Below are positions 21,026 through 29,673 of a stretch of 64,000 bases of DNA, piece by piece. The DNA is from Spirochaetales bacterium Spiro_05. Lineage in GTDB: Bacteria > Spirochaetota > Spirochaetia > Sphaerochaetales > Sphaerochaetaceae. The notes under the pieces were generated by a model. That model worked only from the letters and a program-made list of their open reading frames with translations, was not told where the DNA came from and searched no databases. Position 1 is the stretch's first letter, and every line of letters begins with the position of its first letter. Both the position numbers and the translations under genes were made by a program. Location: positions 62,001 to 126,000 of the forward strand of contig LVBG01000018.1 of the NCBI GenBank assembly GCA_001603115.1, in the 5' to 3' direction.

Positions 21026-21289
21026 TCACTCCTCGAACCTGTTCTCGAACAGGGTCTGGATGGCATCCGCCATCTGTTGTTCGTCGGGACCTTCGCAGAT
21101 CATGGTGATGGTACTTTGGTGGGTAGCCCCCAAGGTGATGATTCCCATGATGGATTTCCCGTTTATCTTCATGCTCTCCTTCTCCAGGTAAAGCTCGCTT
21201 TGGTATTTGTTTGCTGTTTTGACAATGGAGGCAGCCGGCCGGGCGTGGATGCCTGCCCTGTTGTACACTTTCAGTTCTCTGGTAACCAT
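21026..21289 (-). CDS. HPr-family phosphocarrier protein
   Basis: An 87-aa HPr with the phosphorylated His15 (RAGIHARPAA) and the regulatory Ser46 (NGKSIMGI), both canonical. The start ATG at 21289 overlaps the hprK stop by one base (TGATG). Its partner kinase HprK lies directly upstream, so Ser46 phosphorylation is likely. No enzyme I or PTS permease is visible in the window, so whether it works in sugar transport or in a nitrogen-PTS-like regulatory chain is open. It is followed by lexA and holA. Confidence 0.93.
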   Translation of the reverse strand: MVTRELKVYNRAGIHARPAASIVKTANKYQSELYLEKESMKINGKSIMGIITLGATHQSTITMICEGPDEQQMADAIQTLFENRFEE

Positions 21290-22272
21290 CAGAGGGTCTC
21301 CTCGTTGATATAGTACATTTTTCGTGCAGATTCGCTTTCCAGCCACTTCAGGACGCTCTGGTCGAACTCCTTTGCCGAGTAGTATCCGAGTTTCTTCAAC
21401 CGTTCATTTCGTGCGGCTGTCTCGATGATGACAGGGATGTTGCGTCCGGGTTTCACTGGGATGACGACCTTGGGGATGCTGATGCCGAGATAGGTGTCCT
21501 CCATGGTGGCTTCCCCGACACGGTCGTAGTTTTTCTGGGAGTCCCACGGCTCGAGATGGATGGAGAGTTGGACCTGTTTGCGATCTCGGATGGCTCCGAC
21601 CCCATAGAGGTTTGCCAAGTTGATGATGCCCAGACCTCGGATCTCCATATGGTGGGCCAGCAAAGGGTTCTCCCCCATGCCGATGAGATAGTTGTCACTG
21701 ATGTTGCGCAGTTTCACCGTATCATCACTGATGAGGCGGTGTCCGCGCTCGATCAGCTCAAGGGCTGTCTCGCTCTTTCCCACACCGCTTTCCCCGGTGA
21801 TAAGAACGCCGATTCCATAGACTTCGACGAATACTCCGTGAATGGTCTGGGTTGGGGCAAAGACCTCATCAAGCGTCTGATAGAGGCGTCGGGAGAAGTC
21901 GGAGGAGAGGAGGTCGGTCTTCAGGATCGACGTTCCCGACTCTTCGGCGAGCTCGATGACCCGATCACTGGGATTCCCGCCATCGCAAAAGACACAGCAG
22001 GGGATATCGTAGCTGAACAAGCGCTCAATGCTCGCAAGATTTTGCTCAGACTCCAGCTTGTCGAGATAGACCTGCTCTCCACGCCCGAAAACTTGGATTG
22101 AGTTGTTGCTGAACTCATCGAAGAACCCTGAAAGAGGAAGGCCGGGCCGGCTGATCTTGCTGGTGGTAATCTTTCTGGAAAGTCCGGTACGGCCGGCAAT
22201 GCAACTCAACTGCAAGTGGTTGTGTTGCTTCAAGTCCAGGTCCAAAAGTTCCAGAACGGTGAAATCGGGCAT
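21289..22272 (-). CDS. hprK: HPr kinase/phosphorylase
   Basis: A 327-aa enzyme that phosphorylates and dephosphorylates Ser46 of HPr. N-terminal DRTGG-like domain, then the P-loop GESGVGKSETALEL near residue 150 and the family signature MEIRGLGIINLANLYGVGAI. The ATG at 22272 follows AAGGAG at 7 bases; the longer frame upstream is not supported. A promoter TTGCGA-17-TATAGT lies about 40 bases upstream, making this the first gene of hprK-HPr-lexA-holA. Confidence 0.95.
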   Translation of the reverse strand: MPDFTVLELLDLDLKQHNHLQLSCIAGRTGLSRKITTSKISRPGLPLSGFFDEFSNNSIQVFGRGEQVYLDKLESEQNLASIERLFSYDIPCCVFCDGGNPSDRVIELAEESGTSILKTDLLSSDFSRRLYQTLDEVFAPTQTIHGVFVEVYGIGVLITGESGVGKSETALELIERGHRLISDDTVKLRNISDNYLIGMGENPLLAHHMEIRGLGIINLANLYGVGAIRDRKQVQLSIHLEPWDSQKNYDRVGEATMEDTYLGISIPKVVIPVKPGRNIPVIIETAARNERLKKLGYYSAKEFDQSVLKWLESESARKMYYINEETL

Positions 22273-22311
22273 CTGCAACTCCTTGTTCGCCCTCAAGGCA
22301 AATCCTGTTTT

Positions 22312-22340
22312 ACTATACAATTGTTGATGTTCTTTCGCAA
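22312..22340 (-). promoter_or_regulatory. Promoter of hprK-HPr-lexA-holA
   Basis: TTGCGA (22340-22335), 17-base spacer, TATAGT (22317-22312) on the minus strand, about 40 bases before the hprK ATG. Unlike the leaderless set it is followed by a normal leader with AAGGAG. Confidence 0.55.
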
Positions 22341-22469
22341 GTACAATATGAGACAATAAGAGAAGTACTAGGAATTCAGTGATTCAGGTTGTTGTTTATT
22401 AAATAATTATATAGAAATAAATTAAAAATTACCTAAAGAGCAATAAAAATTGCAAATGACATTTGTCCA

Positions 22470-22498: not shown

Positions 22499-22528
22499 TA
22501 GTGTATGACCATAGTCAAAGGAGGGCTT

Positions 22529-22825
22529 ATGAATTTGACTGTCAGAGGCATCCGTTACAACCCAAGCGATGAGACCCGTGAGTTCCTGGACAAGAAACTC
22601 CAGAAACTGCAATTCGCCGAAGGATACCTGCACGATCTCGATATCGTGATCACTCGCGAGACCGAGGGGCAGGGATTCCATTTGGACGCAAAGCTCCACT
22701 TCTCTTGGGGTACCATCAAGATGGTCAGCTATGATTGCTACGAGCTGTACGAAGGCATCGAGTTGATTACCGACAAGATTGAGGCAACGGCTCGGAAGGA
22801 GAAGAGCAAAATCAAGGAACATTGA
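22529..22825 (+). CDS. hpf: Ribosome hibernation promoting factor, short form
   Basis: A 98-aa HPF/RaiA-family protein that sits in the ribosomal A/P site region and silences ribosomes in stationary phase. The N-terminus NLTVRGIRYNPSDETREFL and the later HLDAKLHF and DLYEGIEL-like (ELYEGIELITDKIEA) segments match the family. It lacks the C-terminal dimerisation domain of long HPF. The ATG at 22529 follows AAAGGAGGG. It is convergent to rpoN with a shared hairpin terminator between them, echoing the rpoN-hpf linkage of proteobacteria but in inverted orientation. Confidence 0.9.
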   Translation: MNLTVRGIRYNPSDETREFLDKKLQKLQFAEGYLHDLDIVITRETEGQGFHLDAKLHFSWGTIKMVSYDCYELYEGIELITDKIEATARKEKSKIKEH

Positions 22826-22886: not shown

Positions 22887-24296
22887 CTAGTTTGTACCGC
22901 GAATGAAAGAAGGATCGATGTTCAGCTCGTTGCGATACTTGGCAACCGTGCGCCGTGCCACCGAAATGCCTTTCTCCTTGAGAATATCCGAGATCTTCTG
23001 GTCAGAAAGAGCTTTCTGCCCTTGGTGTTCCTCGAGAATCTGGCGGATGGTCTCCTTCACTGCTTGCTTGGAGAGTTCTGAGCCCTCTTCTCCCACTGCA
23101 TTGCTGAACAGCTTCTTGATGGGGATGATGCCCCAGTCGGTATCGATGTATTTGGCTGTGGCAATTCGGCTGATGGTTGTCTCATGGACACCCAGCTGCT
23201 CTGCAACTGCCTTCTGGGTCAGCGGCTTGATGTACTGGGGTCCGAAGAGGAAGAACTCCTGCTGTTCCTGCAAGAGGATGTGGGCAACCTTGTAGAGCGT
23301 CTGGTTTCGCACCTGCACCTGGAAAATAAGGGCGTTGGCACTCTTGATCTGTTCCTTGATGTACTGCTGGGCTTTCTTGGACTCCTCGGAACTCCCAAGG
23401 TCTTCGGCAAGGGACTCGAACTCTGTGTTGATTGCAAGGTCGGGCAACGATGAGTTGTTCATACTCAGTACCAGCTGCCCCTCCTCGTTCTTGATGGAGA
23501 GGTCTGGGATGACGTACTGCTCAGGTCCGCTGGAGAAGCTCTGTCCCGGAAATGGGGTGAGTGTCTTGAGAAAGGCGAAGAGCTCTTCCAGTTCCTCAGC
23601 ATCGATGCCCAGGTTTTTGGCCACCTGAGCCTGCTTGTTTGCCCGCATCAGTTCCAGGTTCTCCTCGACAAGCGCTTTGAAGTGCTCGAGATCCTCGCCA
23701 CTGAGGCCCTTGGCCTGTGCCTGAAGGATCAGGGACTCCCTCCAATCCTTGGCGCATACCCCAGGTGGATCGAACTGGCGGATGAGTTGCAGAAGATCAG
23801 GCAGGTGCTCTGCTTGTTTTTCGGAGAGGATGGTATTCGGTTCTTCACGAAAGAAGCCGTTTGCGTCGAGGTTGGTGATCAGGATTTCTCCCACCTTGTA
23901 TGCTTCCTCGGTGAGGTGCTCGCACCCAAGCTGGGAGAGCAGGTGTTCCTGCAGTGTCTCCTCAAGCGATAGGGCGTTCTCCATGAACTTCTGCTGGCGA
24001 TCGCTTGCCTCGTAGTCATAGCCGCCTCCCCTGTCACTTCCGTAGCTTGAGGAGTCGGAGTAGGTGTCATCGAGTCCGCTGGTCTCCCGTCTCTGCTTCT
24101 CCTGGGCAAACCGCTCATAGCTGACATCCCAGGAGGAGGGGAGATCGAGGGCAGGATTCGATTCAATCTCTGCCTTGATCCTTGCCTGCAACTCGGTAAG
24201 AGGCAGAGCCATCAGCTCGAACGACTGAAGCAATTGCGGGCTGAGCTTAAGCTGTTGTTTTTGGCTAAGGGAGAGGTTTGGTGAGAATTCCATCAT
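22887..24296 (-). CDS. rpoN: RNA polymerase sigma-54 factor
   Basis: A 469-aa sigma-54. Region I is Gln/Leu-rich (LSLSQKQQLKLSPQLLQSFE), region II acidic, then the core-binding domain and the C-terminal DNA-binding domain with an HTH (AEQLGVHETTISRIATAKYI) and the RpoN box (ARRTVAKYR) close to the end. The ATG at 24296 overlaps the lptB stop by 4 bases and follows GAGG. It is the last gene of lptC-lptA-lptB-rpoN, the same order as in proteobacteria. A sigma-54 activator of NtrC type is encoded at 49119-50477. Confidence 0.95.
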   Translation of the reverse strand: MMEFSPNLSLSQKQQLKLSPQLLQSFELMALPLTELQARIKAEIESNPALDLPSSWDVSYERFAQEKQRRETSGLDDTYSDSSSYGSDRGGGYDYEASDRQQKFMENALSLEETLQEHLLSQLGCEHLTEEAYKVGEILITNLDANGFFREEPNTILSEKQAEHLPDLLQLIRQFDPPGVCAKDWRESLILQAQAKGLSGEDLEHFKALVEENLELMRANKQAQVAKNLGIDAEELEELFAFLKTLTPFPGQSFSSGPEQYVIPDLSIKNEEGQLVLSMNNSSLPDLAINTEFESLAEDLGSSEESKKAQQYIKEQIKSANALIFQVQVRNQTLYKVAHILLQEQQEFFLFGPQYIKPLTQKAVAEQLGVHETTISRIATAKYIDTDWGIIPIKKLFSNAVGEEGSELSKQAVKETIRQILEEHQGQKALSDQKISDILKEKGISVARRTVAKYRNELNIDPSFIRGTN

Positions 24297-25039
24297 GCAT
24301 CCCCCTCGAAGTCCTGTCCAAAATAGATATCCTTTGCTATCTGGTTGGAAAGCAGTTCCTGCCTTCCTCCCGAAACGAGGATGGTTCCTGCATTGATGAT
24401 GTGTGAGCACGAGGTGATCGAGAGGGTATCGCGCACATTGTGGTCGGTCAGCAGGATGCCGATGCCCCTGCTTGAGAGGGATTTGATCAACTGCTTGATC
24501 TCATAGACGGCTTTCGGGTCGATTCCTGCAAAGGGTTCATCGAGAAGGAGAAACTGAGGATTGGAAGCCAAGGCACGGGCTATCTCGGTTCGTCTGCGCT
24601 CACCTCCGCTGAGAGTATAGCCCTTTTGTTTGCGCACTTCTTGGATGCCGAACTCCTCAAGCAGCTCTTCCACACGTTCATCCTGCTCACTTCTGCTCAG
24701 GTCCCTGCGTGTCTGGGCTACGAGGCGAATGTTGTCTTCAACGCTGAGTTTTCGGAAGATCGAGGGCTCTTGGGGCAGGTAGGAGAGACCCTTTTTGGAG
24801 CGTATATACATCGGAAGCTCGGTGATATCCTCCCCGTTGAGGAGAATGGTTCCTTGCTTGGCTTTCAGAAAGCCGACGATCATGTAGAAGGTGGTGGTCT
24901 TTCCCGCCCCATTGGGACCGAGGAGTCCGATGACTTCCCCTGAGTGCATGGAAAAGGAGATGTCCTTCACTACCTCTTTCTTGCCATAGGACTTTGCCAG
25001 ATGCTGGACCTCAAGCAGGCTGGTGAACTGATTATCCAT
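24293..25039 (-). CDS. lptB: Lipopolysaccharide export ATPase LptB
   Basis: A 248-aa ABC ATPase that powers extraction of lipopolysaccharide from the inner membrane. Walker A GPNGAGKTTTFYMIVG, the LptB-type Q-loop region (SYLPQEPSIFRKLSVEDNI), signature LSGGERRRTEIARAL and Walker B FLLLDEPFAGIDP are intact. Location between lptA and rpoN confirms the assignment. It overlaps lptA by 8 bases and rpoN by 4. The permeases LptF/LptG are not in the window. Confidence 0.95.
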   Translation of the reverse strand: MDNQFTSLLEVQHLAKSYGKKEVVKDISFSMHSGEVIGLLGPNGAGKTTTFYMIVGFLKAKQGTILLNGEDITELPMYIRSKKGLSYLPQEPSIFRKLSVEDNIRLVAQTRRDLSRSEQDERVEELLEEFGIQEVRKQKGYTLSGGERRRTEIARALASNPQFLLLDEPFAGIDPKAVYEIKQLIKSLSSRGIGILLTDHNVRDTLSITSCSHIINAGTILVSGGRQELLSNQIAKDIYFGQDFEGDA

Positions 25040-25658
25040 TGATCACCCCCTTGATCGTTCCATCCATGGTAATCTGTTCCGTATCGAGGTCAACCGTGAT
25101 CCGCTGTGCCTCATAGCGGTCTCCCGCCCAGTCGATGGTGGCGTTCCCCCCCAGCTCAAGCGTTCGTTTTTCCCTATCCAGACGCAGAGAATCGGCTTTG
25201 CAGGCCATAACCCCGCTGTCGGTATGTTTGTAGAGCCTTACCTGAACCTGCAGGAGAACCGTTCCCTCATCAAGCGAAAATTCCAGAAAGAAGGAGGTTG
25301 CCTGCACTTCATTGGTCAGATCTTCCAGTTCCAGATACCCATCGACCACCACCAGCTCTTCCTCCCTGTCGTAGAAGAGGTTGTTGCCCATCAGCTTTAC
25401 CCCGCGCTCGTCGTCGTTGAGCTTCACCGAGTCATTGCACGTGACATAACGGAACTCTTTGCCTGATAGTTCGATTGAGTCGGCGGTGAGGGTAAGCGTA
25501 CCGCTGGTAATCTCTGCCCCGCCGGAGAGTGCGATGCTCTGGTATCCTTCTTGCATCTGCATGCGGGTAGAACCACCGCTGAACCGTATCTCTTTGGCAA
25601 ACAAGAGGGTGGGGGGAACAAACAGAAGCAGCAAAAGAGTGTACAGCAACTTTCTCAT
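25032..25658 (-). CDS. lptA: LptA/OstA-like periplasmic LPS-transport protein
   Basis: A 208-aa secreted protein with a signal peptide (MRKLLYTLLLLLFVPPTLLFA) and repeated beta-strand units of the OstA jellyroll (SGGAEITSGTLTLTADSIEL; LMGNNLFYDREEELVVVDGYL; LELGGNATIDWAGDRYEAQR). LptA forms the periplasmic bridge that carries lipopolysaccharide to the outer membrane. It starts in the lptC stop (ATGA) and overlaps lptB. Sequence similarity to enterobacterial LptA is weak, so the name rests on fold pattern and gene order. Confidence 0.8.
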   Translation of the reverse strand: MRKLLYTLLLLLFVPPTLLFAKEIRFSGGSTRMQMQEGYQSIALSGGAEITSGTLTLTADSIELSGKEFRYVTCNDSVKLNDDERGVKLMGNNLFYDREEELVVVDGYLELEDLTNEVQATSFFLEFSLDEGTVLLQVQVRLYKHTDSGVMACKADSLRLDREKRTLELGGNATIDWAGDRYEAQRITVDLDTEQITMDGTIKGVING

Positions 25659-26194
25659 AGGAATATCACCCCTTCGTCGAGCTGGGTGAAGGAGACACTG
25701 CCGTCTTTGAGCTGAATATCCATGCCTACTCCCCGGATGGTCTTGTTTCCTTCAAACTGGAGACTTACCATCTCTTCCCCAACGCTGAGGAGGTGCTGCT
25801 CATCGTGGTACCACACAAGATGCTCAGCCTCAACCACAAGCATATCCGAAGGTTTTTCGACTCGGATGGCACCGGTTAGCGTAGCATCATAGGTGGTGAG
25901 GTTCACTTCTGCCCTCTGTGCTTTTCCCAAAAGCAGAAGCGTACCGTCAGCACTGGTTTGGGTGAAGGTGAAGTTGGTTATGATGGCTTTGTTGGTTGCA
26001 TGGTAGAGGGATATCTCGGCTGCGGTTACGGAGAGCGGTTCATTGTCCCCGCGGTCGAGGCGGTAGGTGGCATTGGTAAGCCTGAGGTCAGGAAGTTCAA
26101 GGGTGCGTGCATACGCCTCCTGCTCAGGAGAGAGGGAGCAGGAGAAGAGAAGCAGTGATGCAAGAACCATGCCAAGAACGAGCTTTTTCCTCAT
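25655..26194 (-). CDS. lptC: LptC-like lipoprotein
   Basis: A 179-aa protein with a lipoprotein signal (MRKKLVLGMVLASLLLFSCS; lipobox Cys about residue 19) and beta-rich repeats like LptC/OstA (AAEISLYHATNKAIITNFTF; VVEAEHLVWYHDEQHLLSVG). LptC normally anchors LptA to the LptBFG complex. Here it may be a lipid-anchored rather than transmembrane version. It heads lptC-lptA-lptB-rpoN. The start ATG at 26194 has no Shine-Dalgarno and lies 6 bases after a TATACT box, so the operon mRNA is probably leaderless. Confidence 0.75.
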   Translation of the reverse strand: MRKKLVLGMVLASLLLFSCSLSPEQEAYARTLELPDLRLTNATYRLDRGDNEPLSVTAAEISLYHATNKAIITNFTFTQTSADGTLLLLGKAQRAEVNLTTYDATLTGAIRVEKPSDMLVVEAEHLVWYHDEQHLLSVGEEMVSLQFEGNKTIRGVGMDIQLKDGSVSFTQLDEGVIFL

Positions 26195-26200
26195 ATGCTG

Positions 26201-26229
26201 AGTATACCCGTGGTTCAAGCTTTGGGCAA
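26201..26229 (-). promoter_or_regulatory. lptC-lptA-lptB-rpoN promoter, predicted leaderless
   Basis: TTGCCC (26229-26224), 17-base spacer, TATACT (26206-26201), then 6 bases to the lptC ATG. The -35 box almost touches the end of the rseC-like gene (26232). Confidence 0.6.
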
Positions 26230-26231
26230 TC

Positions 26232-26648
26232 TCAATTTTCCTTCTCATCGGAGAGGATTCGCTCAACTACCGGCAGGTAGTGGTTCTGACTGCTTCGGAA
26301 GTAGATCCAAACACCTAAAAAACCAACCAGAATACCAAGAAGCCCAAAGAAGAAGGAAGCCAGCTCGCCTGAGCCGAACATAACGGAGAGATAATACCCC
26401 AAGGGGAAGAGCAGAAGGGGGAAAATCAGGGTAATGAGTGTCCCGGCGATGGTACGGCCTGGTTGCAGGTAGATTTCCACCGTCGAACCTGGCTCGGCAG
26501 GAAGCAAATGCTTGTTCCATGCTTCGAAACGCTTGCCCTTGGTGTTGCAGAAGGCTTCCCCTTTGCACCCATTGCAAGCGGAACTGGTGCATGATACTTC
26601 CAGCATCTGCTTCGAAATGATTTTGGTTACGGTAACTATCTCAAACAT
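26232..26648 (-). CDS. SoxR-reducing/RseC-family membrane protein
   Basis: A 138-aa protein with the RseC/MucC pattern: an N-terminal Cys cluster (CTSSACNGCKGEAFC, CX5CX2CX5C) followed by a basic stretch and two hydrophobic segments (LITLIFPLLLFPLGYYLSVM; FFFGLLGILVGFLGVWIY). In proteobacteria RseC belongs to the Rsx/Rnf electron-transfer context and modulates SoxR or sigma-E. No rnf genes are in the window. The start at 26648 overlaps the ymdB-like stop by 8 bases, so the two genes form an operon. Confidence 0.8.
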   Translation of the reverse strand: MFEIVTVTKIISKQMLEVSCTSSACNGCKGEAFCNTKGKRFEAWNKHLLPAEPGSTVEIYLQPGRTIAGTLITLIFPLLLFPLGYYLSVMFGSGELASFFFGLLGILVGFLGVWIYFRSSQNHYLPVVERILSDEKEN

Positions 26649-27462
26649 CCTTCTGTTCCTTCTCGTCCGTTTTTGCCTCCACCGGAATCTGAACGGTCTC
26701 AATCGATGTCGCCTTGCCATCATCTGCAATATCCACCAAAACTCCGACCAGCTTCAGGTCCTCCCAGCACTCAAACGAGCGGGAGGGGACCTGGGAGATA
26801 TGCTTGTCAATCTCCACCTGCTTGTCAAAGCCCCCGACACTCATCTGGCTTCCGCAGCGACCGTTGTCGGTGATGTATGCCGTGCCCCCCTTGAGAATGG
26901 TGGCATCGGCAGAGAGGACCTTGGTATGGGTCCCGATGACTGCGCTTGCCTTGCCATCCAACATGAAGCCCATCGAGAGCTTTTCAGCAGTAGGAGACGC
27001 ATGGAACTGCACCAGGGCGAGCGCTCCATCCTCTTTCGCCTTTTCCACCAGTATTTGGGCAAGGCTGAAAGCGTTGGAGAGATGGGTGCGCGGAAAATCG
27101 GCATTACCGAGGATGTTGATCACGCAGACCTTGATCTCCTTGACGGTGAGGTAGCGCACACCCCGCCCCGGATTCTGTTGCGGATAGTTTGCCGGCCTGA
27201 GAATGCTGGGGTTCTTTGCAATGAACTCAACCATATCCATCTTGTAATAGATTTTCTCACCGCCGGTAAGCACATCAATGCCAAGCTTCAGCAACTGCAT
27301 GCTGTGGGCGCGTCCAAGGCCAAAGCCGTTGGTAGCTCCTTCGCCGTTGGCAATGACCAAGTCGATCTGTTTTTCCTGCCTGAGTGTCTTCAAGGTTTCC
27401 TTGACAGTCTGGATGCCAGGTCTCCCCACTATTTCGCCTAAAAAGAGTACGCGTATGCTCAT
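26641..27462 (-). CDS. YmdB-like (TIGR00282-type) metallophosphoesterase, altered metal site
   Basis: A 273-aa homologue of YmdB phosphodiesterases, recognised along its whole length (LFLGEIVGRPGIQTVKE; SILRPANYPQQNPGRG; GGTAYITDNGRCG). Compared with B. subtilis YmdB several metal ligands are changed: D8 is Glu10, N40 is Gly42, N67 is Gly68 and H177 is Lys181, while E39, H150 and H175 are kept (Glu41, His154, His179). Catalysis may be lost or different. It starts an operon with the rseC-like gene. The ATG at 27462 lacks a Shine-Dalgarno, and a promoter ends 7 bases upstream. Confidence 0.8.
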   Translation of the reverse strand: MSIRVLFLGEIVGRPGIQTVKETLKTLRQEKQIDLVIANGEGATNGFGLGRAHSMQLLKLGIDVLTGGEKIYYKMDMVEFIAKNPSILRPANYPQQNPGRGVRYLTVKEIKVCVINILGNADFPRTHLSNAFSLAQILVEKAKEDGALALVQFHASPTAEKLSMGFMLDGKASAVIGTHTKVLSADATILKGGTAYITDNGRCGSQMSVGGFDKQVEIDKHISQVPSRSFECWEDLKLVGVLVDIADDGKATSIETVQIPVEAKTDEKEQKDV

Positions 27463-27499: not shown

Positions 27500-27537
27500 G
27501 GCTTACCGTGTTACAATGCAGAGGGCGGAGGCATACC

Positions 27538-29673
27538 ATGATCCTAAGGGGTTTCGAGCAATTGAAGAAGCGCATCGTACAGATGAGAATGCAAGAGATG
27601 CTTGCTCCCCGGGTGTGTCTACCCGACTACGAGCCCATGCACTTGCTCCTTCCTCCCAGCGATGAGCCTTCGGTGGCCAAGCGTCTTCTTGCACACCTTA
27701 CTGCAGATGAGAAGATTTCCCTGCTTTCGGGAGTTGAGGAGTTTTGCATACCTGCTGTTCCTCGTGTCGGACTCAAAGCTGTGTGGAGCAGTGATGCCAC
27801 CCTTGGTCTGAGGAACTGGAAGACGGAAGTCACCGACTTTCCCGCATCCTCAGCACTGGCATCGAGCTTCGATCGTGAGCTGCTTGAGCGCGTAGGCACC
27901 ATATTGGGTGAGGAGTGCCGGGCTTTGGGAGTGGGAGTGCTCCTGGGGCCGGGGGTGAACTTGGCCCGGGTCCCTGTGTGTGGGAGAAACTTCGAGTATT
28001 ATGGTGAGGACCCGTATCTGAGCGGGGAGATGGCAGCTGCTTACATCAAGGGTGTCACCACCTACCCGGTCATCACCTGCGTAAAGCATTTTGCCTGCAA
28101 CAACAGCGAGTATGACCGGCATAAATCAAACTCTGTGGTGGATGAACGGACGCTCAGAGAGCTCTATCTGCCTGCATTCAAACGCAGCCTTGAATCTGGT
28201 TCTCTTGCCCTGATGACCAGTTACAACCAAGTGAACGGAACCTATACCAGCGAACATCCCTACCTGTTGGAGGGCATTCTCAGGGGAGAGTGGGGCTTTG
28301 ATACGCTGGTGGTCTCAGATTGGAATTCGCTGTACAGCACCCAAGGGGTGCTCGCTCATGGTGTAGATCTTGAGATGCCTGCTCCCAGATACTTGGGAAA
28401 GGAGCAAGTGCAGAAGAGCCTGCAAACAGATAAGGCTACCCAAGCGATGATTGATGCCAAAGTACTGCATCTGCTCACAACGTATGAGAGAGCAGGGCTC
28501 TTCACTGTCCCGATGGCCGACACTACCTGCAAGGCGGGCACTGCCGAACATCGTCAGGCAGCCCTCGGGGCTGCCCTCTCCTCGGTAGTGTTGCTCAAGA
28601 ATGATGATGCAGTCCTCCCGCTCGACAAGCATGCACATCTTTGCATCGGAGGCAGCCTCATCGACAAGGTGAGCCAAGGCGGTGGATCGTCCATGATTGC
28701 CTTGCAAGCAGGTGTGCAGACACTTGCTTCTGCTTTGCAAGAACGGGCAGATCGCCTTCCCCGGTTCTGGTATCGTGCGCCGAAGTGGAGAAAGAGAGTG
28801 GCACAGGCCGATGCTGTGGTACTGCAGGTTGGCTTTGATCATATTGAGGAGAGCGAAGCATACGACAAGCCGTGGCGATTGCTTGCCAGCGACAGGGAGT
28901 CGATTCGCCAAGCAGCAAAGCTGAACGGCAAGACAGTGGTGATTGTGCAAAGTGGCGGGGCGGTGGAGATGGAGAGTTGGCACGCCTGCGTTCCCTCGAT
29001 TCTCTCAGCATCCTTCCTCGGCTCCTCAACAGCCCAAGCCTTGGAGGCCTTGTTGTTCGGAGATGCCAACCCATCAGGAAAGCTCTGCTATACCATTGCT
29101 CATTCGCTTGACGACTACCGCTCAATGCGCACGTATCCCCGGGATTTTGCTCATCTGAGCCTTGCTCGGCTTCGAAAGGGGCAGGGTGATCCGACTGTGC
29201 GTTCGGTGCAAAACCTGGAGTACAACGAGGCCTTGATGATGGGGTACCGGCAGTTTGACACAGAAAAACAGGAACCGCTCTTCTGCTTCGGCCATGGGCT
29301 TTCCTATACACATTTTTTCTACGAAAATTTGAAGTGTGAGGAGCTCAGTGATGGCTGGGAGCTCTCCTTTACGGTACGCAACTGCACTGAAAGAGCAGGC
29401 AGCGAGGTATGTCAGCTCTATGTCCGTTCCTTCGAACCGGTAGTGTTCCGCCCGATGCAAGAGCTGAAGGGGTTTGTGAAAGTGGCCTTGGGACCTCATG
29501 CATCCAAACAGGTCTCGCTCGTTGTGGGCTTTGAGGCTCTCTCCCGGTGGGATCTGGAACGTTGGGCTTTTGTCAGTGATCCTGGACAGTATGAGCTGTG
29601 CGTGGGTTCCAGCAGCCGCGATATCCGGCTGCAGTGCGTAGTGGAGCACAAAAAAAGGAAGCCATTCGACTGA
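27538..29673 (+). CDS. Glycoside hydrolase family 3 beta-glycosidase
   Basis: A 711-aa GH3 enzyme without a signal peptide, so probably cytoplasmic. The N-terminal barrel includes LGPGVNLARVPVCGRNFEYY, VKHFACNNSEYDR and the nucleophile Asp in LVVSDWNSLYS. The second alpha/beta domain contains SSVVLLKNDDAVLPL and SFLGSSTAQALEALLFGDANPSGKL as two motifs. A C-terminal fibronectin-III-like domain follows (GHGLSYTHFFYE; RSFEPVVFRPMQELKGF). It likely cleaves beta-glucosides or related oligosaccharides. GGAGG lies 7 bases before ATG 27538. The stop codon lies in the loop of the neighbouring tRNA terminator. Confidence 0.93.
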   Translation: MILRGFEQLKKRIVQMRMQEMLAPRVCLPDYEPMHLLLPPSDEPSVAKRLLAHLTADEKISLLSGVEEFCIPAVPRVGLKAVWSSDATLGLRNWKTEVTDFPASSALASSFDRELLERVGTILGEECRALGVGVLLGPGVNLARVPVCGRNFEYYGEDPYLSGEMAAAYIKGVTTYPVITCVKHFACNNSEYDRHKSNSVVDERTLRELYLPAFKRSLESGSLALMTSYNQVNGTYTSEHPYLLEGILRGEWGFDTLVVSDWNSLYSTQGVLAHGVDLEMPAPRYLGKEQVQKSLQTDKATQAMIDAKVLHLLTTYERAGLFTVPMADTTCKAGTAEHRQAALGAALSSVVLLKNDDAVLPLDKHAHLCIGGSLIDKVSQGGGSSMIALQAGVQTLASALQERADRLPRFWYRAPKWRKRVAQADAVVLQVGFDHIEESEAYDKPWRLLASDRESIRQAAKLNGKTVVIVQSGGAVEMESWHACVPSILSASFLGSSTAQALEALLFGDANPSGKLCYTIAHSLDDYRSMRTYPRDFAHLSLARLRKGQGDPTVRSVQNLEYNEALMMGYRQFDTEKQEPLFCFGHGLSYTHFFYENLKCEELSDGWELSFTVRNCTERAGSEVCQLYVRSFEPVVFRPMQELKGFVKVALGPHASKQVSLVVGFEALSRWDLERWAFVSDPGQYELCVGSSSRDIRLQCVVEHKKRKPFD

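Follow-up and report, generated by a model that had tools for sequence, protein, structure and literature searches.

The locus studied here raises the question of what becomes of an enzyme that keeps its fold and gives up much of its metal site. The window (the whole 64,000-nucleotide stretch of DNA that we analyzed) contains a gene, here called ymdB2, whose product resembles the phosphodiesterase YmdB of Bacillus subtilis, and a preliminary description, made by eye from the sequence, had read its metal site as either rebuilt or dead. That description left three options side by side, namely a site for one metal, another activity, or a purely structural or ligand-binding role.

The metal site of YmdB2

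The open reading frame is intact, as had been described, and its strand is minus:

26641 to 27462, minus strand: ymdB2, a YmdB-family paralogue of clade B, 273 amino acids (P0001)

The earlier assignment to the YmdB family stands. The product matches PF13277 with 285.2 bits over residues 6-257 (cut-off 27), its best-scoring solved relative is 4b2o (phmmer, E 3.4e-47), and all 37 members of alignment A1 match PF13277 at E <= 0.001. Structure prediction and superposition on YmdB, which had been proposed as a check, returned the same fold: the AF2 model has a mean pLDDT of 93.4 and superposes on 4b2o with a TM of 0.90 and an rmsd of 1.6 (in the VIA comparison, Z 38.9 over 258 residues). Even a Borrelia-like member of clade B that keeps none of the seven YmdB ligands is predicted with a pLDDT of 90.2 and a TM of 0.89. 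The YmdB fold is thus predicted to be intact in YmdB2.

We read the ligand positions from a MAFFT alignment of YmdB2 with B. subtilis YmdB. Four of the seven are replaced (Asp8 by Glu10, Asn40 by Gly42, Asn67 by Glu69 and His177 by Lys181), and three are kept (Glu39 as Glu41, His150 as His154 and His175 as His179). The preliminary description had given the same count and the same three kept residues, and three of its four replacements were correct; it had, however, paired Asn67 with Gly68, whose YmdB counterpart is Gly66, whereas the residue at the ligand position is Glu69. The codons concerned are listed below with the residues found at the same positions in clade B, the group of ymdB2, and clade A, the group of canonical YmdB.

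27433 to 27435, minus strand: Glu10 codon; YmdB Asp8, a second-iron ligand; Glu in 114, Asp in 2 and Gln in 1 of 117 B proteins, Asp in 110/110 A proteins
27340 to 27342, minus strand: Glu41 codon; YmdB Glu39, kept; Glu in 53, Asp in 45 and Asn in 19 of 117 B
27337 to 27339, minus strand: Gly42 codon; YmdB Asn40, lost; Asn in 3/117 B
27256 to 27258, minus strand: Glu69 codon; YmdB Asn67; Glu in 77, Asp in 39 and Tyr in 1 of 117 B
27253 to 27255, minus strand: Lys70 codon; YmdB catalytic His68, lost; His in 0/117 B
27001 to 27003, minus strand: His154 codon; YmdB His150, kept; His in 101/117 B
26926 to 26928, minus strand: His179 codon; YmdB His175, kept; His in 81/117 B
26920 to 26922, minus strand: Lys181 codon; YmdB His177, a second-iron ligand, replaced; Arg in 59, Lys in 57 and Leu in 1 of 117 B

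Two points go beyond the preliminary description: the loss of the catalytic His68, which is Lys70 in YmdB2, and the presence of a second, canonical copy. His68 and Asp71 are named as the catalytic dyad of YmdB in the part of PMC10406935 that treats its active site, and the pair corresponds to Lys70 and Tyr73 here. An active YmdB phosphodiesterase would be expected to have all seven ligands and the catalytic histidine; YmdB2 has replaced four of the former and lacks the latter. It therefore resembles the YmdB/DR1281 family (PF13277), to which its solved relatives 4b2o, 1t70, 2cv9 and 1t71 belong, in sequence, whole fold and three of seven ligands, but differs in the other four ligands and His68, and its TIGR00282 score of 222.7 bits falls under the NCBI cut-off of 254.15.

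Canonical ligands at shifted positions were looked for in YmdB2 and not found. Misalignment was rejected on two grounds, as the ligand columns give identical query residues in three alignments, and the alignments with 4b2o cover almost the whole protein (query 3-259 in phmmer, 3-262 in VIA).

The same section of PMC10406935 names Asp8 and His177 as second-iron ligands. It further states that in MslH, a YmdB-like Ca(II) peptide epimerase of Streptomyces, the second metal is missing partly because there is no residue at the Asn40 equivalent, and that the single metal sits on the equivalents of Glu39, Asn67, His150 and His175. On these assignments, the changes at Asp8, His177 and Asn40 would all fall in the second-iron site, and the change of Asn67 to Glu would leave a possible first-site ligand. 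The single-metal-site residues of YmdB2 are Glu41, Glu69 (where the MslH-type pattern has Asn), His154 and His179. It is possible that Glu69 itself could serve as a metal ligand and that a one-metal site made of these four residues survives, and an acid/base pair seems to have taken the place of the second-iron site.

A second clade beside canonical YmdB

The source genome also encodes a canonical YmdB (L002), which scores 275.4 bits against TIGR00282, keeps all ligands and lies directly after the gene for RNase Y (TIGR03319, 664.5 bits, cut-off 454). To place both copies, we sampled loci from the window's family (119 genomes), phylum (247) and class (297), and added 19 from named contigs (14 from Sphaerochaeta, other Spirochaetales and Spirochaetia, and 5 from Bacillota) and those of 15 genomes elsewhere in the phylum, outside the class. 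ORFs shorter than 200 amino acids, or whose last 150 residues were the same as those of an earlier ORF, were excluded, after which 117 B and 110 A non-redundant proteins remained; the duplicate loci L003 and L004 were left out of the alignment. In a quick, unrooted tree of 170 rows, with several long branches and with L193 and L198 left out, all 104 in-class B rows fell on one side of a branch (SH-aLRT 100), and the 56 in-class canonical rows likewise grouped on one side (SH-aLRT 97).

The conservation of the changed residues in relatives, another of the checks proposed at the outset, proved to be more than chance. All 110 A proteins have D, E, N, N, H, H, H and H at positions 8, 39, 40, 67, 68, 150, 175 and 177, although Asp71 is not universal among them (26/110). 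In clade B, the three key changes occur together in 112/117 proteins, the exceptions being L070, L144, L176, L180 and L182. Because the same replacements recur through clade B, the altered metal site is not a local accident, and because these substitutions are nearly fixed in the 117 B proteins and the ligands are invariant in the 110 A proteins, the sequences support the view that the canonical di-iron site, and with it normal phosphodiesterase chemistry, has been lost. This part of the preliminary reading holds. "Dead" is too simple a word for the site, though, given that Glu10, an acid at 69 and Lys or Arg at 181 are close to invariant. In a literature search on spirochaetes, none of the matches listed showed an altered or additional YmdB.

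Residues 69 and 181 pair as Glu-Lys in 55, Glu-Arg in 22, Asp-Arg in 37 and Asp-Lys in 1 of 115 proteins, counts that would be suggestive of a contact in which side-chain lengths compensate each other (Glu69 with Lys181, Asp69 with Arg181). With only 3 phylogenetically independent pairs on supported branches and a median p of 1, we did not count this as evidence.

The main rival to a binding role is that YmdB2 is a one-metal enzyme with a new activity, in which Glu41, Glu69, His154 and His179 would hold one divalent ion, Lys181 would act as a cation or base, and other chemistry or another substrate would have been taken up, much as MslH became a Ca(II) epimerase. In clade B, the quartet of Glu or Asp at 39 and 67 with His150 and His175 is intact in 80/117 proteins, YmdB2 of the window included, and Glu39 is never found without both histidines (53/53); the equivalent four positions hold the one metal of MslH in the active-site account of PMC10406935. 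The quartet is broken, however, in 37/117 members of an otherwise conserved clade, so that its members cannot all share a function based on one fixed metal chemistry, and where position 39 is Asn, His175 is gone in 18/19. Moreover, His68 has been lost in 117/117 and replaced by 13 residue types, which leaves no common general acid at this position. We regard a one-metal enzyme as an unlikely, if serious, alternative. The preliminary description had listed a mononuclear site without choosing among its three options, and the first-iron positions could still hold one metal, as that account of MslH has it.

We also considered whether clade B might be a decaying duplicate on its way to loss. First-site ligands have been lost in some branches: the Borrelia-like member introduced above reads E-N-F-E-N-D-G-R at the seven ligand positions and that of His68. 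There are also copies that seem to be split (G998), and both copies have been lost in Treponema-like genomes. (The labels "Borrelia-like" and "Treponema-like" are our own, drawn from copy pattern and gene order.) Selection argues against decay. Among species pairs of the window's genus with unsaturated values, dN/dS was 0.024 for B against 0.037 for A (G000-G002), 0.028 for both (G023-G055), and 0.071 and 0.075 for B against 0.036 and 0.039 for A (G059-G067 and G063-G067), the last two pairs showing B a little looser; we discarded pairs in which dS was saturated (nan or well above 1), as well as G059-G063, which are nearly identical. ymdB2 is under strong purifying selection, and with dN/dS between 0.02 and 0.08 in the unsaturated pairs we rejected a pseudogene. 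In addition, 37 diverse members of clade B share a mean column identity of 49%, B-specific residues including T44, H53, K59 and R202 are near-invariant, and matches occur in most of the class Spirochaetia. Decay thus appears very improbable.

Some copies show breaks of another kind. The matches of four B copies, L196 and L199 (f75) and L201 and L202 (f58), break near residue 105 with the frame open, pointing to an extra inserted stretch, and B-type matches in G975, G980 and G986 (genus g25) break near residue 190, also with the frame open, pointing to an insertion.

Gene neighborhood and retention of the two copies

In the window, ymdB2 heads a minus-strand run that reads ymdB2-rseC-lptC-lptA-lptB-rpoN:

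26232 to 26648, minus strand: rseC, an RseC_MucC-like protein with CX2CX5C and two hydrophobic stretches
25655 to 26266, minus strand: LptC-related protein (PF06835, 25.4 bits, cut-off 21)
25032 to 25658, minus strand: LptA/OstA-like protein (PF03968, 35.8 bits)
24293 to 25039, minus strand: LptB, LPS-export ABC ATPase (TIGR04406, 348.3 bits, cut-off 240)
22887 to 24410, minus strand: RpoN, sigma-54 (PF04552, PF04963, PF00309)

An RseC-like redox protein had been proposed as the operon partner. The rseC start codon (ATG, 26648-26646) does overlap the end of ymdB2 (stop, 26643-26641), by 8 bases, and the longer, 165-amino-acid rseC ORF matches PF04246 (RseC_MucC) with 59.5 bits (cut-off 24.4); against NF008115, the NCBI model for the RseC of SoxR-reducing systems, however, it reaches only 19.2 bits, far below the cut-off of 184. 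The protein is like RseC/RnfF/MucC in its PF04246 match and in its CX2CX5C motif; in E. coli RseC, this motif makes up an Fe-S cluster of the N-terminal domain that is sensitive to oxygen, according to the portion of PMC11729352 concerned with it. E. coli RseC belongs to rpoE-rseABC, whereas the window's rseC follows ymdB2 and precedes lptC. Around this run lie a divergent GH3 glycosidase gene upstream of ymdB2 (27508-29673, plus strand), which, within the window's genus, is also a neighbor of B at many loci, as it is in some other families, an ORF for an S30AE ribosome-associated protein that lies by rpoN on the other strand (22505-22825, plus strand), and an HPr kinase ORF adjoining rpoN (21289-22356, minus strand).

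We counted neighbors at 119 non-redundant B loci, 117 of which had at least 600 bases downstream; these 117 loci form a different list from the 117 proteins used for ligand counts. The next gene downstream, on the same strand, is an RseC-like ORF at 80/117 B loci and at 0/103 A loci; at the other 37/117 B loci none was detected in that place. The adjacency occurs in 28 of 40 labelled families. The upstream side differs as well, with RNase Y directly upstream of 71/103 A but 0/111 B genes. Among 81 non-redundant RseC-like ORFs of B loci, the cysteine motif is strict CX2CX5C in 40, CX2CX3-8C in 29, CX2C only in 10 and absent in 2. An LptC-like (or LptA-like) ORF occurs within 6 kb downstream at 22/41 wide B loci, a count that may include LptA because the LptC profile also matched LptA ORFs. 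The order varies, as in a Borrelia-like locus (L172) where lptC/A/B lie upstream of B and murA follows (TIGR01072, 512.9 bits).

RseC was rejected as an obligate partner, both on the 37/117 B loci without it directly downstream and on its presence in at least 56 Treponema-like genomes that have no YmdB match. These counts also bear on the idea that YmdB2 is a metal-free sensor, whose Lys/Arg181 pocket would bind phosphate or a cyclic nucleotide without hydrolyzing it and relay the signal to RseC or to chemotaxis or membrane partners. Lys or Arg at 181 in 116/117 B proteins and the RseC neighbor at most B loci are consistent with such a sensor, as are chemoreceptor genes beside L283 and L288 and one gene away from L285. 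Against it stand the B loci at which RseC was not detected, and no nucleotide-specific residue was identified; we consider a sensor of this kind quite improbable.

Outside the class, ten genomes of the phylum gave two matches. Seven of them (G119, G133, G145, G156, G164, G171 and G192) have one B and one canonical copy, the B copy with the pattern E-D-G-D-x-H-(H/N)-(R/K), and in the remaining three the canonical gene is in pieces. We detected neither an RseC-like ORF directly downstream of the seven out-of-class B copies nor an Lpt match near the six of them with wider flanks. L283 and L288, two of these copies, adjoin methyl-accepting chemotaxis protein genes, and L285 is the one a gene away. 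In a second tree, built without the ligand columns and with every second in-class B row and about two-thirds of the A rows left out, all 62 sampled B rows were separated from all 42 A rows (SH-aLRT 99), the seven out-of-class B copies forming one group (100) and the 55 sampled in-class B another (98). Given this grouping, clade B probably arose before the class Spirochaetia did. A canonical-type YmdB in an out-of-class genome that is otherwise complete in a single contig is apparently split in two frames (G254:C1:222988-223774; L216 and L225).

Within Spirochaetia, 266/297 genomes match the YmdB family, and of the 178 matching genomes of good quality, all but 7 have at least two matches, a count made by eye that includes some split matches and does not type them as A or B. 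Most examined Spirochaetia carry a second YmdB-shaped protein with an altered metal site beside a normal YmdB. In Bacillota, by comparison, 352 of 398 sampled genomes match, 349 of the 352 with a single match and three with two, and ligands were canonical at 32/32 loci (the 30 best-scoring and two more). Canonical YmdB stands alone in nearly all sampled Bacillota and in most matching Spirochaetota outside Spirochaetia, and so A does not need B.

The Treponema-like family offers a view of loss. Only 40/145 genomes match, and 105/145 have neither copy; assigned by score and span, 38 of the 40 have both copies (some in pieces), two draft genomes (G959 and G987) have only B, and none has only A. 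RNase Y, on the other hand, matches in 143/145 genomes, on which we rejected a link to it through shared loss, and RseC in 96/145. On these counts, the presence of B tracks that of canonical YmdB better than that of RseC or RNase Y. The independent losses of the pair are probably few in number; the genus g25 holds both states (neither copy in G174, both in G967), and several other genera are without both. In G998, G957 and G990, one YmdB-family copy is apparently in pieces; these are possibly broken genes or assembly errors.

A probable binding role and its precedents

YmdB2 has kept its family and predicted fold, has lost the second-iron ligands and the catalytic histidine, and is held by purifying selection. 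A positive side chain occupies the place of a metal-binding histidine, so YmdB2 is probably no longer the YmdB enzyme and, as judged from sequence, is now probably a conserved binding or control protein. The explanation that we favor, and think on balance likely, is that ymdB2 encodes an anciently duplicated, conserved pseudo-phosphodiesterase that acts as a regulatory or scaffold partner of canonical YmdB, with RseC optional.

Under this explanation, Lys or Arg181 would replace the positive charge of the second iron and pair with Glu10 and the acid at 69. In the window's subclade the pocket would hold at most one divalent metal (on Glu41, Glu69, His154 and His179), whereas Borrelia-like and some Treponema-like members might bind none; canonical two-metal, His-assisted hydrolysis would be impossible for YmdB2. 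The protein would most likely work by binding, whether in a hetero-oligomer with the canonical YmdB of the same cell or in competition for the same nucleotide or RNA ligand, and membrane RseC would be a common but optional second partner. A narrower version, in which a protein class predating Spirochaetia has Lys or Arg as a permanent substitute for one metal and B serves as a regulatory subunit of its canonical twin, the two being retained or lost as a pair and B being tied, where rseC is adjacent, to a membrane Fe-S protein encoded next to LPS-export genes, seems doubtful to us.

Canonical YmdB appears to be the best-supported partner of YmdB2, although several observations run against this pairing. 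Most matching Spirochaetota outside Spirochaetia have canonical YmdB without B, two Treponema-like genomes have B only, 7/178 good-quality genomes have one copy, and B is looser than A in two dN/dS pairs; the co-loss of A and B may reflect only a few loss events.

Two known systems offer precedents by analogy. MslH, which shows that a YmdB-like fold can become a one-metal enzyme, resembles YmdB2 in the loss of the second metal site and in a one-metal site, which is only a possible one in the case of YmdB2, at the equivalents of Glu39, Asn67, His150 and His175. As far as the active-site section of PMC10406935 describes it, however, MslH keeps Asp11, His295 (YmdB Asp8 and His177) and His88 (His68) as catalytic dyads; all three are replaced in YmdB2, and the gene contexts of the two differ. 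VPS29 of retromer, described in the relevant part of PMC3101248 as a scaffold with a metallophosphoesterase fold and an altered metal pocket, shows that a scaffold can arise from such a fold. At the position of the bridging acid, VPS29, by the same account, and 19/117 B proteins have Asn; VPS29 is nonetheless eukaryotic, has different partners and is structurally far from YmdB2 (a weak Foldseek row, TM 0.29).

As of 2018, the physiological substrate of YmdB had still not been found in Bacillus, according to the part of PMC6123443 on this point. The question can also be approached from a second side, through a twin that is widespread and probably inactive and that accompanies the active enzyme: whatever YmdB2 binds, or whatever its deletion removes, should point to what YmdB does. 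Clade B likewise offers a naturally occurring set of metal-site changes (His to Lys or Arg, Asn to Glu or Asp, Asp to Glu), through which the passage from metalloenzyme to binding protein can be studied.

Where a genome has two YmdB-family genes, as Borrelia-like genomes apparently do, one of the products is probably an enzyme and the other probably not. Judging by gene order and a one-residue indel, we take the Borrelia copy of B to be BB_0471. In the portion of PMC6711536 where it is listed, BB_0471 appears as a hypothetical protein.
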